Shown one piece after another: positions 4,596-11,637 of a DNA stretch of 64,000 bases. The stretch's first letter is position 1. Each line of letters opens with the position of its first letter. Position numbers and translations under genes: made by a program. The notes beneath the pieces were generated by a model, which had not been told where the DNA came from, searched no databases, and saw only the letters and a list, made by a program, of their open reading frames with translations. Source of the DNA: Thermosipho ferrireducens (GTDB lineage: Bacteria; Thermotogota; Thermotogae; Thermotogales; Fervidobacteriaceae); NCBI RefSeq assembly GCF_017358165.1, contig NZ_CP071446.1:1550001-1614000 (forward strand). Reading direction: 5' to 3'.

Positions 4596-5783
4596 TTATA
4601 ATAATTTTTTCAACTCATTAACCATATCAAGTTTTTCCCAGGTAAACTCAGGATCATTTCTACCAAAGTGTCCATATGCAGCGGTTTTTCTATATATAGG
4701 TTTCAAAAGATCAAGCTTTTTAATAATTGCCCCAGGTCTAAAATCAAAAAGCTCAAGTATTGCGTTAAGAATTTTTTCCTCAGCTACTTTTGCTGTGTTG
4801 TAGGTATTGATCATAATTGAAACAGGTTGAGCTTTTCCTATTGCATAGGCCACCTGTATTATAAATTTGTCGGCAAGTCCAGCTGCCACAACATTTTTAG
4901 CGACATAACGTGCAAAATAGTGTGCAGAGCGATCAACTTTTGTAGGATCTTTTCCGCTGAAAGCTCCTCCACCATGTGGAATTGCTCCACCATAAGTGTC
5001 TACAATAATTTTTCTTCCAGTAAGCCCGGTATCTGCTGAAGGACCACCAAGAACAAATCTTCCTGTAGGATTAACCAATATTTTGAGGTTATCATCTCTT
5101 AAATTTTCAGGTAAAACGGGATCTATTACGTGTTTTATAAGAGCTTCTTCAATTTCCTGATTCGTAACATCAGGCTCGTGTTGTGTAGAAATTAATACAG
5201 TATCAATTCTAATGGGCTTTTCGTTTTCATCATATTCAACTGTTACCTGTGTTTTTCCATCAGGTCTAAGAAATGGAACTGTGCCATTCTTCCTGACTTC
5301 ACTGAGTTTTTTTGCAAGTTTGTGTGCAAGAACAATAGGAAGAGGCATAAATTCTTCCGTTTCATTTGTTGCGTATCCAAACATCATTCCCTGGTCGCCT
5401 GCACCAACAATTTCCAACTCGTCCTCAGCTTTTAGCTCACCTTTTTTAGCTTCTAATGCTTTATCAACTCCAAGGGCAATATCTGGAGACTGACTGTGAA
5501 TCGATGAAACAACAGCACAGGTTTCACCGTCGAATCCATATTTTGCCCTGGTGTATCCTATATCCATAATAGTTTTTCTTACAACATCCTGAATGTCTAC
5601 ATAAGCTCTTGTTGTAACTTCACCGGCAACAATAGCTATCCCGGTTGTCACTAATGTTTCCACAGCTACACGGGACTTTGGATCCTGTTCAAGCATCGCG
5701 TCCAAGATAGCGTCACTGATCTGGTCCGCTACCTTGTCTGGGTGACCTTCGGTAACACTTTCACTTGTAAAGAGTCTCTTCAT
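4596..5783 (-). CDS. metK: S-adenosylmethionine synthetase
   Basis: Makes S-adenosylmethionine from methionine and ATP in the cytoplasm. Clear family motifs are [10 protein letters not shown] at the N-terminus, the hexapeptide GAGDQG in the ATP site, and [16 protein letters not shown] with catalytic lysine and phosphate-binding residues. At 395 residues it is full length. The ATG overlaps the stop of the preceding zinc-ribbon gene in an ATGA arrangement, which implies translational coupling. No SAM riboswitch is visible because there is no leader. It connects to metH in the window through the methyl cycle. Confidence 0.97.
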
Positions 5784-6109
5784 TCCTCAACCTCCTTTTC
5801 GTAATCTTCTTTTGTAATAAACTTACCACCGCTTATTTCTATGCTCACTGGCTTATACGAGCCAGTGAATTGTGCTTTTATCTCGATTTTGTTAGGACAT
5901 TTTGAACCCACATAAAGTTTTTCTATCCTATATGGAACATCTGGATTTTCATAATTTATTATAAAATCATATCCCTTTCTTAAATGACTCCTGAAAACTT
6001 CTCCGCATTTATTACATCTTAGATACACTACCAGATTTTTCTTATCTTTATAAAAAGGATTTATTTCAAGATCTGCTTCTTTTTTCTTTTTCTTCTTGAA
6101 AAAGAACAC
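5780..6109 (-). CDS. Small CxxC protein, probable zinc ribbon, coupled to metK
   Basis: A 109-residue protein starting with GTG (AAGGTG upstream). It has a basic, Phe/Lys-rich N-terminus, then [19 protein letters not shown], where the CxxC resembles half of a zinc knuckle. A further single Cys lies at SKCPNK. It is cytoplasmic by appearance. It overlaps metK by 4 bp, so the two are translationally coupled. I do not recognise a named family. Nucleic-acid or metal binding is plausible from the cysteines only. Confidence 0.75.
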
Positions 6110-6113
6110 AATG

Positions 6114-7076
6114 TCACCTTCTTAAGTTAAAAGTTAACACTTTTTTCCTTCCCCATGCATCTGAAAGTTCTATTGTAACAGGTATAATGTCACCTGATGG
6201 TTTAAATTCGGGGAAATTATTTTCTTTTACAACAGAGCCAATTTTTTCCGGATATAACTTATAGTAAGCCCGGTAAACATAACCTGATGCAATGGAATCA
6301 TCAGTATATACTGTATAAGCTTTTTCAAATTCAGACATAGGTACACTATCGAACATTATATGATACACCAATTTATTTGAAAAGTAAAGTTTTATATCAT
6401 TCAAACCTATTAAATTTCTGTTAATTTGAAAATACGCATTTACCGCTATTTTAGGATACGCTCCTGAATACTGGTATGTTTTCCCTTCTTCGTAATCGTA
6501 CCGCTTACCATTTATTATTAAGTCTTTCACAACTATTTCTCCTTTTGGAGGATCGATTTTTATGAAATCAAGTGGATTATACAATGTTTCTTCTGTTCTG
6601 TCTCTTATTTCCACATGAGCATGCGGTTGAACTGCTTCTCCAGTTTTTCCTGAATATCCTATAACATCACCTTGCGAAAATTTTATATTCTCTTCAGAAA
6701 ATTCAACAACTATTCTTTGCTTACCAAACTCTGCTATAAGATTATCAACAAGCTTTTGAATTTTTGGAGCAAAAGCGCTTAGATGAGCATAAAGGGACCT
6801 GTAACCATTTGGATGCTGCAATACCACTACGTTGCCATAAATGTTATCATCATCTATCTCAATTCTTGCAAGATAACCATCGTAAATAGCTCTTATTGGT
6901 ACGCCTTCTCTTAAAAAAGTGCTGAAGTCAATTCCGCCGTGAAAGTGTGCAGCTGTCCCGGTGCTTCTAAATTCACCAAAAGTAGACGTAAGATAACTAT
7001 CTTCAACTGGTGGAATAAAAGCTGAAAATAAGCTTAATCCTACCACTAATAATACTAAAAGAAGCAGTTTTTTCAT
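6114..7076 (-). CDS. Exported M23 (LytM/gp13-type) metallopeptidase
   Basis: A 320-residue protein with a signal peptide (residues about 1-18, MKKLLLLVLLVVGLSLFSA). The M23 zinc endopeptidase core follows: FHGGIDFST supplies the first His and Asp ligands, and PHAHVEIRD supplies the HxH pair. VVVLQHPNGYRSLYAHLS is also typical. Such enzymes cut peptide cross-links of peptidoglycan or act as regulators of amidases. All zinc ligands are present, so it is probably active. A C-terminal domain of about 140 residues is unrecognised. It ends 4 bp upstream of the zinc-ribbon gene and follows hflX directly. Confidence 0.9.
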   Translation of the reverse strand: MKKLLLLVLLVVGLSLFSAFIPPVEDSYLTSTFGEFRSTGTAAHFHGGIDFSTFLREGVPIRAIYDGYLARIEIDDDNIYGNVVVLQHPNGYRSLYAHLSAFAPKIQKLVDNLIAEFGKQRIVVEFSEENIKFSQGDVIGYSGKTGEAVQPHAHVEIRDRTEETLYNPLDFIKIDPPKGEIVVKDLIINGKRYDYEEGKTYQYSGAYPKIAVNAYFQINRNLIGLNDIKLYFSNKLVYHIMFDSVPMSEFEKAYTVYTDDSIASGYVYRAYYKLYPEKIGSVVKENNFPEFKPSGDIIPVTIELSDAWGRKKVLTFNLRR

Positions 7077-8348
7077 TTAAAAACCTCCTTGTATTGTTTT
7101 TTTTATTTGATGCAAGACTGCCTTTGGACCTTTTAACGATAATTTATAACTATTGTTTCTCATTTCAATAACGTTTAGATTTAGTGCATCACGAAATTTC
7201 ATTACTTCACCTATTTTAGGAAATGGAACATCCAAAATTAAGCTCTCTTCCATTTTATCAAAGAACTTATCTATTTTCAATAACAAATCAATTATATTTT
7301 GTCTTTTTTTTGCCGATATATAAATCGCTTCTGGGTAATTCTTTTTTACCACCGAAAGATAGTCCTCAGAACATAGATCTATTTTGTTAAATACAAGGAT
7401 GTAAGGTTTATTGTAAACTCCTATGTCGTATAAAACTTCATGTACTATTTTCAATTTTTTCTGATAGTTATGATCAGATACGTCAAGTAATATTAATATT
7501 AAATCAGAATGTACTATCTCTTCAAGCGTTGAATGAAATGACTCGACTAATGTATGAGGTAATTTTTTAATAAAACCTACTGTATCACTAAAAATGACAT
7601 AACGCCCCGAAGGAAGCTTAACCTTCCTCAATAAAGGTGCCAGTGTTGAAAACATCTCGTTTTTTATTAAAACGTTTTCCTGCGAAAGTTGAGCCAACAA
7701 AGTGCTTTTTCCAGCATTTGTATAACCCACAATGGAAATTATTCCGTGATACGATTCCAATCTTTTTTTTCTTTTAATTTCTCTGTTCTTTTTAATTTGT
7801 TCCAGCTTTTTTGTTAAAATTCGGATTCTTTTTTTAATATACCTTTTGGTGTATTCTGCTTCCTGTTCTCCAGGGCCTCGAGTTGCAATTCCACCACCGA
7901 GTCTTGAAAACTCTTTCCCCTTACCAACAATGTATGGTAACTCGTACTTTAATTTTGCAATTTCTACCTGAAGTTTTCCCTCATTTGTAGTAGCATGTTT
8001 CAAAAAAATTCTTAATATTACCTGGGTCCTATCTAAAACATTCACATTTAAAAATTTTTCCAGGTTTCTTTTCTGTGCAGGTGTTATTTCGTCATTTGTT
8101 ACTACAACTTCTATATTCTCATCTTTGCAAAAGTTTTTGATTTTGTTAAGTTTACCTTTTCCAAGATAATAGGACGGATCTGGTTTTACTCTCTTTTGAT
8201 AAAATTTGTCTACAACTTCCAATCCAAGCGTTCTGCACAACTGCTCAAGTTCAAGCAACGAATCAAGTACATCCTGTTCATACCCGGAAATACCAATTAA
8301 CAAACATTTATTGTTCACTACTTTTTTTCTCACTCTCCTTTTTCTCAC
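7077..8348 (-). CDS. hflX: Ribosome-associated GTPase HflX
   Basis: HflX is a GTPase that splits or rescues stalled 70S ribosomes under stress. The family signature GGGIATRGPGEQEAEYTKR precedes the G domain. The G domain has G1 GYTNAGKST, G3 DTVGF and G4 NKID. The start is uncertain: the frame opens with GTG at 8348, overlapping hfq by about 40 bp, and another GTG lies at 8318 near the hfq stop. Linkage hfq-hflX is widespread in bacteria. Length of about 413-423 residues is normal. Confidence 0.95.
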   Translation of the reverse strand: MRKRRVRKKVVNNKCLLIGISGYEQDVLDSLLELEQLCRTLGLEVVDKFYQKRVKPDPSYYLGKGKLNKIKNFCKDENIEVVVTNDEITPAQKRNLEKFLNVNVLDRTQVILRIFLKHATTNEGKLQVEIAKLKYELPYIVGKGKEFSRLGGGIATRGPGEQEAEYTKRYIKKRIRILTKKLEQIKKNREIKRKKRLESYHGIISIVGYTNAGKSTLLAQLSQENVLIKNEMFSTLAPLLRKVKLPSGRYVIFSDTVGFIKKLPHTLVESFHSTLEEIVHSDLILILLDVSDHNYQKKLKIVHEVLYDIGVYNKPYILVFNKIDLCSEDYLSVVKKNYPEAIYISAKKRQNIIDLLLKIDKFFDKMEESLILDVPFPKIGEVMKFRDALNLNVIEMRNNSYKLSLKGPKAVLHQIKKTIQGGF

Positions 8349-8589
8349 TTTCTTCAGAAGTTTCTTGCTGTTTCATTATTTTCACGTAAGTATCTGGCAT
8401 AATAGTACTCACAGCATGTTTATAAATGAGGTTTTGTTGGTTCCCGTTTTCAAGTAGCATTGTAAAACTATCAAAGGATCTTATAATTCCTTTTGTTTGA
8501 AATCCATTAACAAGATACACTTTTACCGGTATTTTGTTAATACGCAGGATATTAAGAAATTTGTCCTGAAGGTTAAACTTTTCCGCCAT
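8308..8589 (-). CDS. hfq: RNA chaperone Hfq
   Basis: Hfq forms Sm-type hexamers that pair small RNAs with mRNAs. The whole Sm1/Sm2 core is present: NLQDKFLNILR, IPVKVYLVNGFQTKGIIRSF and the highly conserved YKHAVSTI. Residues 1-72 form the core. The C-terminal tail of about 20 residues is Glu/Ser/Lys-rich and probably unstructured. The ATG has GGGGG upstream. It is the first gene of the hfq-hflX-M23 group. Confidence 0.96.
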   Translation of the reverse strand: MAEKFNLQDKFLNILRINKIPVKVYLVNGFQTKGIIRSFDSFTMLLENGNQQNLIYKHAVSTIMPDTYVKIMKQQETSEESEKKESEKKSSEQ

Positions 8590-8636: not shown

Positions 8637-9068
8637 TCATTTTTTATAAAGATCACGTGGAAAAGACCATCTTATATCTATATATCTAACAAGTAAATTT
8701 GTCTGTTTCCCATCTTCTAAAATGTATATTCTATCTATCCCACGAACATTTTGAAATAACGTATACATCATCTGCAAAAACAAATATATTTCTTCTTCCA
8801 GAGAATAAGATTGTATAAGCGAAAAATTTATGTCAATAATAAGCGAAGTTTCGACAAAATAATACGCATTTAACAGATCAGTCGGAATATAAGTTGAATA
8901 TCCAACGGGAGGTTTGCTGAGCTTTTTAAATAAATCCTCCACTTGTAGGCTTTCCGAACTATCTTCTACAAAGATTATATCATTATTATTTACAAAAGCA
9001 ATTTTTGCTGAAAAAGAAAAAGAATAAATAAATAAAACTAAAACAAATATTACTGCAATCTTTTTCAT
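8637..9068 (-). CDS. Exported protein with GerMN-like domain
   Basis: A 143-residue protein with a signal peptide (MKKIAVIFVLVLFIYSFSFS). Residues about 40-138 follow the GerMN pattern: a hydrophobic strand, VIDIN-like SLIIDINFSL, a helix ending in MMYTLFQNVRGIDRIYILEDGK, and a final strand. GerMN domains occur in spore germination protein GerM, and in non-sporeformers next to cell-wall amidases; they bind envelope components. It starts 2 bp after the stop of the amidase-like gene upstream, which supports that association. The assignment comes from pattern matching and is moderate. Confidence 0.7.
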   Translation of the reverse strand: MKKIAVIFVLVLFIYSFSFSAKIAFVNNNDIIFVEDSSESLQVEDLFKKLSKPPVGYSTYIPTDLLNAYYFVETSLIIDINFSLIQSYSLEEEIYLFLQMMYTLFQNVRGIDRIYILEDGKQTNLLVRYIDIRWSFPRDLYKK

Positions 9069-9070
9069 GT

Positions 9071-9964
9071 TTAATCACCCTTCAAATATTTTTTAACTTC
9101 CTCCCAGGTTTCTTCTGGTCCATAAATTACTATTCCAGGATTCTCTATTGGAAGCTGAATAAAAGGAACATAAAACAATTTGAATTTAAACTTAGTGGCT
9201 AAGTTTTCAGCTACATTTTTGCTAAAAGCATATCTTTCCCAGTCACTGCCTCCAAAATCCGGACTGTAATTTCTCACAAAAACTGCGTTCATTGTGCTAT
9301 TTACGTAAAAAACAACAAAAGAATCAGAATCGAGATTTGTTATGGTATCACCAAGAGATTTGAAAACGTATTTTTTTACTTCCCAATTTGTGTAAATTTG
9401 AATTATAGTTCGGTTTGGAAGAAAATTTTCTTCGAAACTATTTGCATTTTCATATTTATGTGTGTAGACTACCTCACCGGGCACATACAATCTATTCATA
9501 TATGTATATCCGTCCGTTTTAATGTACAGTGTGTTATTATTCAAAAAAGTTTCAAGGTTATTTTTACCAAGATAATCAATCTGTATCAGATTTGAATAGT
9601 CAGTGAGCTTTTCAATATACATTGTAACAAGATTTATATTATCTCCTTCTTTTAGATATTTAATTTCAAAAAAATCGAAAATTTTTTGAAAATCAATTTC
9701 TTTGACCACTGCTCCATCAAAAACGAAAACATCATTAGATACAGCCAGCAAATGATCGTTCCATTCAACGTATTTAAACGTACCTACTTCCCCAAGAGAA
9801 ATTTTTTGTAAAGACAATTGAGATGTATACAATTGCAAAATTTCAACAATAGTATTGTAATTTACCTCTGTAGCTTCAACAGATAATTTACCTATGTTAA
9901 TGGTTACACCCAGGCTTATGCTGAGTAATGCTACAGCAAGCATTAAAATCAAATGAAGTCTCAA
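9071..9964 (-). CDS. Exported protein resembling a degenerate N-acetylmuramoyl-L-alanine amidase
   Basis: A 297-residue protein with a signal peptide (about residues 1-19). The TTG start overlaps the uridine-kinase-like gene's stop in a TTGA arrangement. Residues about 20-100 look like the small beta-rich domain often called copper amine oxidase N-terminal-like. The C-terminal third (FVVFYVNSTMNAVF, then FSKNVAENLATKFKFK) follows the layout of Amidase_3 after its catalytic SIHAN motif. The zinc-binding His residues and the N-terminal DPGHGG motif are absent. It may be an inactive, binding-only amidase relative. This is inference; unknown function is the safe label. Confidence 0.7.
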   Translation of the reverse strand: MRLHLILMLAVALLSISLGVTINIGKLSVEATEVNYNTIVEILQLYTSQLSLQKISLGEVGTFKYVEWNDHLLAVSNDVFVFDGAVVKEIDFQKIFDFFEIKYLKEGDNINLVTMYIEKLTDYSNLIQIDYLGKNNLETFLNNNTLYIKTDGYTYMNRLYVPGEVVYTHKYENANSFEENFLPNRTIIQIYTNWEVKKYVFKSLGDTITNLDSDSFVVFYVNSTMNAVFVRNYSPDFGGSDWERYAFSKNVAENLATKFKFKLFYVPFIQLPIENPGIVIYGPEETWEEVKKYLKGD

Positions 9965-11637
9965 TATCTAAACACACTCCTTCCTATAAACTCCCTAATT
10001 AAAGATGTTCTTGGAATATCCTCCAAATTGGTTATTGGAAGGAAATAATCTAAAATTTTGAGTAATCTTGTTGCTTCCGAAATTTCTGGCTCGCTATCAG
10101 GTACAGCTATAAGCAACGGTTCAGCGAACATTTTCAACACTGCTATTTCATAAACCAGGGCACTATTGAACATTACATCTGCATTTTCCTGGAAAGGAAA
10201 AATGTTTCTGTCCTCCCCTCTTCTAACATTTGGCCACATCTTTAATGTAGCAAGAGCATCATGATTTCTGAATTTACTATCTCTTACCAATCGCCTGAGA
10301 AGCCGTGTGTCAGTAGTGTGTATCCTATTTGTGTTATCCAGGTTTAATTGTGTAAGTGCACTGGCATAAATTTTAAATTTTAACTCTTCCGGTACCATCT
10401 CCGTTAATTTTGGATTGAGTCCATGAATTCCCTCAACAATTATTGGTTGGTCTTTATCTATTTTCAAGAATCTTCCATTTTTCTTTCTTTTCCCGGTTGT
10501 AAAGTCAAATCGAGGAAGTTCTACTTCTTTTCCTTCGAAAAGCTCCAATAAATTTTTATTAAAAAGCTCTACATCAAGAGCTTCCAATGCCTCGAAATCA
10601 TAATTTCCATTTTCATCCCTTGGAGTTTTTTCACGATCCACAAAATAGTCATCAAGAGAGATTGTTACTGGTCTTAATCCGCTTGCCCTAAGTTGTACCA
10701 TTAAGCGTTTAGAAAAGGTTGTTTTTCCGCTGGAAGAGGGGCCAGCTATAAGAATCAGTCGAACTTTTGGTTTTTGCTTTATCTCTTCTGCAATCATCGC
10801 TATTCTTTTTTCATGTAAAGCTTCTGCCATAATTATAAGATCAGTTACTGTTCTTTCACCTCTGGCTATGAGACTATTTAAATCTCCTACACTGTCTATG
10901 TTCATTATTTCTAACCATTTTTCATACTCAAGGAAGACCGCTGAAAGCTTTGGAAGAGGTTTGAACTCACAAATGGGGTTACCATTATCAAATTTAGGTA
11001 ACACTAATACAAATCCCTCGCTATACTTTACAAGATCGAAATGTTTTAGAAGACCTGTGCTTGGTGGCATGTAACCATAGAAATAATCAAAATGTCCTGC
11101 TGCTTCATAAACTTTTATTGTTTTTTTCTTTCTATACTTTAATAAGCTAACTTTATCTTCATATTTCATTTTTTCAAATAATTTAAAAGCTTCGTATTTA
11201 AATAGTTCGTGCTTTTTGAATTCGTAATCATTTTCAATGATTTTCTCCATTTCACTTTTTATACGCTTGACATCTTCTTCAGAAAGCACCAATTTCCTAT
11301 CATGATCTCTCAATTCACAGTAAATTCCTCTTCCAATACTGTGGGAAACTTTTAACTTATAACCAGGGAATAACTCTCTGATGGACGCATGCAAAATGAA
11401 TAATAGCCCCCTCTGGTATATTCTAAATCCATCTGTAGTATTTACATCGATAAATTCCACTACACCTGAACGTGTTAATGGTCTGAAAAGCTCAACTATA
11501 GAGTTATTAATTCTGGCGGCAACTATAGGAGACTTGTAAAATTTCTGGTAATCTTTTGCAAAATTCAAAAGAGTTGTACCTTCTTCCACAAAAATTTTTT
11601 TGTTGTCTTCTTTAAATATCAATTCCAGTTTTTTCAC
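9961..11637 (-). CDS. Uridine kinase-like protein with ThrRS-like N-terminal domains
   Basis: A 558-residue cytoplasmic protein. Residues about 1-60 look like a TGS domain, and about 70-170 like the second additional domain of threonyl-tRNA synthetase (SHSIGRGIYCEL). A P-loop kinase of the uridine kinase/phosphoribulokinase family follows, with GPSSSGKTT at 299-307, SLDDYFVDR and the acceptor-site region PRFDFTTGKR. This three-part architecture is known in Thermotogae and Firmicutes and is usually annotated as uridine kinase; its real substrate is not proved here. It ends with a TTGA overlap into the amidase-like gene. Confidence 0.88.
   Translation of the reverse strand: MKKLELIFKEDNKKIFVEEGTTLLNFAKDYQKFYKSPIVAARINNSIVELFRPLTRSGVVEFIDVNTTDGFRIYQRGLLFILHASIRELFPGYKLKVSHSIGRGIYCELRDHDRKLVLSEEDVKRIKSEMEKIIENDYEFKKHELFKYEAFKLFEKMKYEDKVSLLKYRKKKTIKVYEAAGHFDYFYGYMPPSTGLLKHFDLVKYSEGFVLVLPKFDNGNPICEFKPLPKLSAVFLEYEKWLEIMNIDSVGDLNSLIARGERTVTDLIIMAEALHEKRIAMIAEEIKQKPKVRLILIAGPSSSGKTTFSKRLMVQLRASGLRPVTISLDDYFVDREKTPRDENGNYDFEALEALDVELFNKNLLELFEGKEVELPRFDFTTGKRKKNGRFLKIDKDQPIIVEGIHGLNPKLTEMVPEELKFKIYASALTQLNLDNTNRIHTTDTRLLRRLVRDSKFRNHDALATLKMWPNVRRGEDRNIFPFQENADVMFNSALVYEIAVLKMFAEPLLIAVPDSEPEISEATRLLKILDYFLPITNLEDIPRTSLIREFIGRSVFRY

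Follow-up and report, generated by a model that had tools for sequence, protein, structure and literature searches.

We examined a window, that is, a stretch of 64,000 nucleotides from Thermosipho ferrireducens analysed as a whole, in which one strand carries in order genes for a uridine-kinase-like protein, a DUF4941 protein, a GerMN-domain protein, Hfq, HflX, an M23 peptidase, a zinc-ribbon-like protein and a MetK-like protein, the last named by eye (Table 1). The second of these products matched Pfam DUF4941 (PF16299) at E 3.1e-40 and 138.5 bits, against a cut-off of 28.8, and the same profile matched all 35 aligned members of the family. Its Pfam title names no function, and a full-text literature search on the family name found no published fold assignment. 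Nothing was found in full-text literature combining Thermotoga, toga, amidase and peptidoglycan, and the literature on GerMN with amidase held nothing on the DUF4941 family as judged by title. The GerMN gene begins 2 bases after the DUF4941 stop. Its product scored 22.5 bits with the Germane profile (PF10646), just below the 23-bit cut-off, and 30 of the 31 aligned partner proteins matched at E <= 0.01, in keeping with the GerMN-like neighbour of the initial annotation; no lipobox was seen by eye. The zinc-ribbon-like protein (window 5780-6109, 109 aa) has the same place, flanked by the M23 and metK-like genes, in two further loci read of the window's family (L042 and L043; the family is hereafter f1).

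Table 1. Positions of the genes and protein regions discussed, numbered from the first letter of the window.
Feature	Position	Strand	Remarks
DUF4941 pseudo-amidase gene	9071..9964	-	297 aa; begins with TTG; overlaps the kinase gene upstream by 4 bases
Signal-peptide-like hydrophobic helix at the N-terminus, residues 1-19	9908..9964	-	Model helix, and hydrophobicity by eye
Probable reduced stalk domain of copper-amine-oxidase N1 type, N-terminal, residues 20-112	9629..9907	-	Inferred
AMIN-like beta sandwich, residues 113-193	9386..9628	-	Fold match only
Amidase_3-like domain lacking the zinc site (residues 197-297)	9074..9376	-	Structure superposition; no His
FYVNST, residues 219-224	9293..9310	-	Strand carrying SIHAN in Amidase_3, by strand order (inferred)
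Best-conserved stretch of the pseudo-amidase domain, R231...D236, G239, D241	9242..9274	-	35-member alignment
GerMN (Germane)-domain partner gene	8637..9068	-	143 aa, signal-peptide-like start by eye
Uridine-kinase-like gene	9961..11637	-	Directly upstream, constant neighbour
hfq	8308..8589	-	After GerMN in f1 loci read; outside the conserved module
hflX	7077..8348	-	After hfq in the window, L042 and L043
M23 peptidase gene	6114..7076	-	Has HxxxD and HxH motifs; close to the pair in f1 alone

The window protein was modelled from the 35-sequence alignment (mean pLDDT 90.9, pTM 0.68). The model has a helix at residues 2-15, is beta-rich up to residue 203 and alpha/beta beyond, in agreement with the signal peptide and beta-rich N-terminal part that had been proposed. 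Structures were compared with VIA-align over Foldseek's top 1000 PDB chains, and the top 50 rows were considered. Nine of these rows cover the segment at residues 193/197-297, and all nine are Amidase_3 proteins: Rv3717 (4m6i; Z 8.1, 95 residues aligned, 2.9 Å), a second Rv3717 entry (4m6h, Z 7.2), AmiB (7.2), AmiC (7.1), Ami1 (6.5), a C. difficile amidase (6.4), the PHICD111 EAD (6.2), AmiC2 (6.1) and YrvJ (6.0). We take YrvJ to be an amidase and the PHICD111 domain to be of the Amidase_3 kind. A Z near 8 can by itself reflect a common arrangement of elements, and the match of the window model is borderline when taken alone.

A longer orthologue from family f11 (L067, 350 aa; model pLDDT 90.5) gave a clearer result. 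Its best row was again Rv3717, at Z 11.1 with 122 residues aligned at 3.0 Å, followed by ten further Amidase_3 entries at Z 9.8-8.7, which makes 11 rows in all. The non-amidase rows for the amidase-like segment were aspartoacylases and Csd4 at Z 7.6-7.3, and the distance of Z 11.1 from 7.6 indicates that the Amidase_3 likeness is more than chance. The C-terminal part of both proteins thus has an Amidase_3 fold in the computed models, as the initial annotation had supposed from the sequence layout. The AmiC structure aligns over L067 residues 136-350 at Z 8.9 but with an rmsd of 16.6, the domains being turned differently. The amidase-like part of L067 has an extra helix (241-249) that is absent from the window form. 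Against the f11 form the window-type domain lacks about 20 residues, and it falls further short of the 174-position Amidase_3 model. For both models, Foldseek used alone placed other folds at the top.

The preceding regions were assigned from the same comparisons. Residues 113-193 of the window protein match 5h3k (Z 8.0) and 3jc8_Qa (Z 7.0), a type IV pilus chain that we take to be the PilQ AMIN domain. Many small heat-shock proteins match at similar Z, so that the AMIN-like sandwich is a statement about fold only. No row of the top 50 covers residues 20-112 of the window model, where the order of elements is similar to that of L067, and residues 39-123 of L067 match residues 6-82 of E. coli amine oxidase at Z 9.5. 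By way of L067, the N-terminal domain of the window protein is probably a reduced stalk of the copper-amine-oxidase N1 type.

We then compared the family with amidases at the level of sequence. None of the 35 DUF4941 members matched Pfam Amidase_3, AMIN or Cu_amine_oxidN at E <= 0.1, and the window protein has no DPGHGG motif, its absence having been observed correctly at the outset. The Amidase_3 amidases of the phylum (for example L072, 458 aa) likewise begin with a signal-peptide-like segment, and in them a long N-terminal half precedes the amidase domain and shows a weak profile match to DUF4941; they keep DPGHGG, a SIHxN-type motif and conserved Glu columns, all of which the DUF4941 proteins lack. 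A profile-profile match to true amidases at P 6e-6 was discarded as inflated by the signal peptide; the signal peptide by itself (24 columns) gave a match between the GerMN alignment and DUF4941 at P 9.7e-5. With the signal peptide trimmed, the DUF4941 profile scored 31.2 against the phylum's amidases (P 0.0026, or 0.0098 in global mode; the top score of 40 column shuffles was 18.9), and we count this fall in significance as leaving weak support. The C-terminal part gave no significant match to the amidase profiles for the family (P 0.059), and two f11 members reached P 0.0095 with a match partly outside the catalytic domain, so that homology of this part rests on fold. MAFFT alignments of DUF4941 with true amidases in two modes never paired the DUF4941 strand with SIHAN and differed in how they aligned the first part of the proteins; they were dropped as a guide to residue equivalence.

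The zinc ligands of Amidase_3 are His-Glu-His, accompanied by a catalytic Glu, and the site therefore includes two histidines. From residue 195 onward, 27 of the 35 aligned members have no histidine, the window protein (195-297) among them, which makes the two-histidine site impossible in those members. The remaining eight C-terminal segments have one to three histidines each, and these members, including L066 and L067, may bind metal, judging from sequence. The L067 strand corresponding to the SIHAN strand reads DFHTSS, perhaps a remnant. FYVNST of the window protein had been placed where SIHAN should be; it does sit partly on a strand of the model (215-222), and its equivalence to the SIHAN strand is judged from strand order.

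Other positions of the domain are strongly kept. Across the 35 members, G239 and an acidic residue (D or E) at 236 occur in all, D241 and P272 in 33 each, P267 in 32 and R231 in 28. Of 11 species pairs, 10 gave a full-gene dN/dS of 0.068-0.135 and one was saturated; the pairs overlap and are not independent, and dS was above 1 in four. The C-terminal part had values of 0.04-0.22, above the N-terminal part in some pairs and below it in others. Such low ratios indicate purifying selection on a DUF4941 gene that is not decaying.

The genomic setting of the gene was found to be constant. In 36 loci measured from 36 of the 37 genomes with DUF4941 (the remaining one, G102, is split over two contigs and was left out), the kinase gene lies upstream and the GerMN gene downstream without exception. 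Kinase and DUF4941 genes overlap by 4 bases in 28 of the 36 loci. From DUF4941 to GerMN the spacing ranges between -19 and +7 bases across the 36 loci, 20 of which show a 4-base overlap; it was measured to the start codon closest to the end of DUF4941, a rule that in itself makes the distances smaller. Together with the fold and the loss of histidines in 27 of the 35 members, this arrangement upholds the earlier proposal of a non-catalytic Amidase_3-like protein tightly paired with a GerMN gene. At one locus (L021 of G091), the kinase gene is split in two, the detected piece stopping 478 bases away, and a TGA interrupts the GerMN gene; as read from the sequence, these breaks are frameshifts or sequencing errors.

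Beyond GerMN the neighbours vary with lineage. The f1 loci read (the window, L005, L006, L042 and L043) continue with hfq, and the f2 and f3 loci with a next gene listed continue with a gene of 257-268 aa, presumably TrmI-like. Two f11 loci have a 91-92-aa gene plus a 266-267-aa gene resembling the one in f2 and f3. Some pair-less f4 and f9 genomes have same-looking genes (by eye) directly after the kinase, so it seems that the pair either disappeared from a constant slot behind the kinase or never entered it.

To describe the distribution of the pair, 103 Thermotogota genomes and 14 controls were searched. Thermotoga maritima was the sole control with a DUF4941 match. The window protein found matches at E <= 0.01 in 37 of the 103 genomes, of which 34 sit at the expected locus and three are weak and lie elsewhere, and the Pfam profile at E <= 0.001 in 38, of which 36 were above the cut-off. 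The final set comprises 37 genomes: nine of f1, 11 of f2 and 14 of f3, families that form one order, and three of f11, including G102, whose DUF4941 match is below the Pfam cut-off. It was reached by dropping G034, where a weak match lies in another gene context. The three weak matches elsewhere (G075, G014 and G016) and a second match in G084 adjoin neither a kinase nor a GerMN gene and are regarded as chance; the one in G075 is a cation-efflux protein. A scan of genome contigs with the window protein found no relatives.

The GerMN protein was found at E <= 0.01 in 40 genomes, namely these 37 and, weakly, G003, G027 and G042. The match in G003 (f6) is a real GerMN gene of the partner's family (L128:333-803, E 4.8e-13 to the alignment), and no DUF4941-like frame occurs in the 332 bases upstream of it, where the contig begins. 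In two f1 genera (11 genomes, one only 60% complete) neither DUF4941 nor GerMN was found, and the kinase is followed by another small gene in all seven loci read from them. The kinase itself was present at E <= 1e-30 in 99 of the 103 genomes. In a midpoint-rooted tree of 69 kinase sequences, f1-f3 grouped together with support of 0.995 and f11 fell outside, which points to a patchy history of the pair.

We also assessed the occurrence of live amidases. Amidase_3 was found in 51 of the 103 genomes but in only three of the 37 with DUF4941 (G063, G084 and G086), counts that are shaped by lineage and far from independent, and a search of the window's own genome for Amidase_3 found none. Amidase_2 occurs in four of the 103, one of them the DUF4941 genome G084, and 18 genomes lack Amidase_3 and DUF4941 alike; the census covers PF01520 and PF01510, and other amidase types are possible. 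The idea that DUF4941 is the f10 amidase altered in place was rejected, as the amidase follows cheB and its neighbours, not the kinase gene, in the f10 genomes read. Another kind of Amidase_3 protein, of 526-553 aa and with PGHGG present, was observed in three genomes, at L074:5041-6621, L076:1253-2914 and L077:6864-8492; each adjoins a similar 265-272-aa gene, and in two cases transporter-like genes (by eye) come next.

A possible origin was sought in a wider sample of 80 amidase loci, taken from a scan of genome contigs with true amidases and lying mostly outside Firmicutes by title. A same-strand open reading frame lies downstream in 46 of them and an opposite-strand one in 23; three loci end there, and in eight the amidase frame was not picked out. 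Within this mostly non-Firmicutes sample, Germane directly follows the amidase in two of the 46, from a Negativicutes MAG (L176:2113-4169) and a Gemmatimonadetes MAG (L165:2173-4288). In each the amidase carries PGHGG and the Germane frame overlaps its 3' end. The initial annotation had called amidases and GerMN domains frequent neighbours in Firmicutes, a statement on which these loci bear only in part. The gene order is that of DUF4941-GerMN, which makes an origin from such a unit plausible, with an ordinary operon of amidase and GerMN genes as the probable ancestor. No amidase matches near Germane matches were found within the 103 phylum genomes, and at five f9 loci GerMN genes of a different type, without a match to the partner alignment, do not lie beside amidases.

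On this evidence, we consider it about two-thirds probable that the DUF4941 protein is a secreted, non-catalytic descendant of a stalk-AMIN-Amidase_3 amidase that works with its GerMN partner in a scaffolding or regulatory role. The computations bear directly on the fold, the lost zinc site, the purifying selection and the two-gene unit; secretion, binding to peptidoglycan, contact with GerMN and regulation are predicted. The AMIN and stalk part would bind peptidoglycan on the outer side of the inner membrane. The dead amidase domain would hold the GerMN protein or a wall polymer through its R231-D236-G239-D241 face without cutting, and the pair may scaffold or regulate other enzymes of the wall. 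The protein is probably a non-cutting one that binds the wall or has a regulatory role.

Several known systems offer a comparison. The mycobacterial CwlM, as portrayed in PMC4946905, is homologous to amidases, has degenerate histidines at the zinc-binding positions and activates MurA; an amidase activity of CwlM is given there on the strength of a cited report. CwlM resembles the DUF4941 protein in its likeness to amidases and its degraded zinc site, and it is regulatory; it is cytoplasmic, whereas the DUF4941 protein is predicted to be secreted and is paired with GerMN. Inactive LytM regulators of the EnvC/DipM type, according to PMC4946905 and PMC10336132, are also dead wall hydrolases kept as regulators. 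In those systems a dead M23-type protein acts on live hydrolases including amidases, whereas in DUF4941 it is the amidase fold that is dead. The GerM protein of B. subtilis is described in PMC6934232 and PMC7924749 as a sporulation lipoprotein with two GerMN domains, unlike the partner here, which has one GerMN-like domain and lacks a lipobox by eye.

The system could also be a mirror image of EnvC, in which, in an order largely devoid of Amidase_3 and Amidase_2 genes, a dead amidase with GerMN recruits or activates M23 endopeptidases, regulator and enzyme being swapped relative to E. coli. The initial annotation had suggested, as one option, that the pair regulates the M23 peptidase encoded by the third gene beyond GerMN. 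That peptidase has zinc motifs that look intact and is no more than about 3 kb from DUF4941 in all nine f1 genomes with the pair, and EnvC, in PMC4946905, provides the precedent of an inactive hydrolase homologue that activates amidases. Of the other 28 pair genomes, however, nine carry the M23 gene on the same contig but no closer than about 125 kb, 18 carry it on another contig, and in one (G056) it was not found. M23 is also common, at E <= 1e-25 in 87 of the 103 genomes, and in the pair-less f1 genera it occurs in 10 of 11 genomes and within about 10 kb of the kinase in nine of those 10. Nearness in f1 therefore does not depend on the pair; the specific tie to this peptidase was not sustained, and we hold the mirror-image arrangement to be unlikely.

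Slightly less likely still is that the C-terminal part is an unrelated or distant alpha/beta domain, of the zinc-carboxypeptidase or aspartoacylase kind, with a chance likeness to Amidase_3. The insignificant sequence match of this part and the alignment of aspartoacylases and Csd4 would suit such a domain. Against it stand the higher amidase rows of L067, the fit of its stalk-AMIN-amidase domain order and the occurrence of GerMN beside motif-bearing amidases in two distant genomes. A role as an assembly factor of the toga (outer sheath), with GerMN in a ring-like oligomer and apart from wall hydrolysis, appears highly improbable: DUF4941 was found only in Thermotogota among the 103 genomes and 14 controls, but pair-less members of the phylum also have a toga. 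The GerMN domains of GerM have non-canonical ring-building motifs, as would favour this role, but PMC6934232 reports that GerM showed no physiologically relevant oligomers. An enzyme with a new active site on the Amidase_3 fold, built from D236 and D241 with R231, seems just as improbable, since the acidic positions 236 and 241 are indeed conserved but conserved polar residues are few, most members lack histidine and the window-type domain is shortened relative to the f11 form and the Amidase_3 model.

With the reading of a secreted pseudo-amidase paired with GerMN, a family present in 37 of the 103 phylum genomes gains a fold and a testable role. It points to heat-loving bacteria that are mostly without the usual amidase families yet keep a pseudo-amidase, which has a bearing on how the wall is split at division in these bacteria. 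It would also add a secreted case with an amidase fold to the dead-hydrolase regulators represented by CwlM and the inactive LytM proteins.
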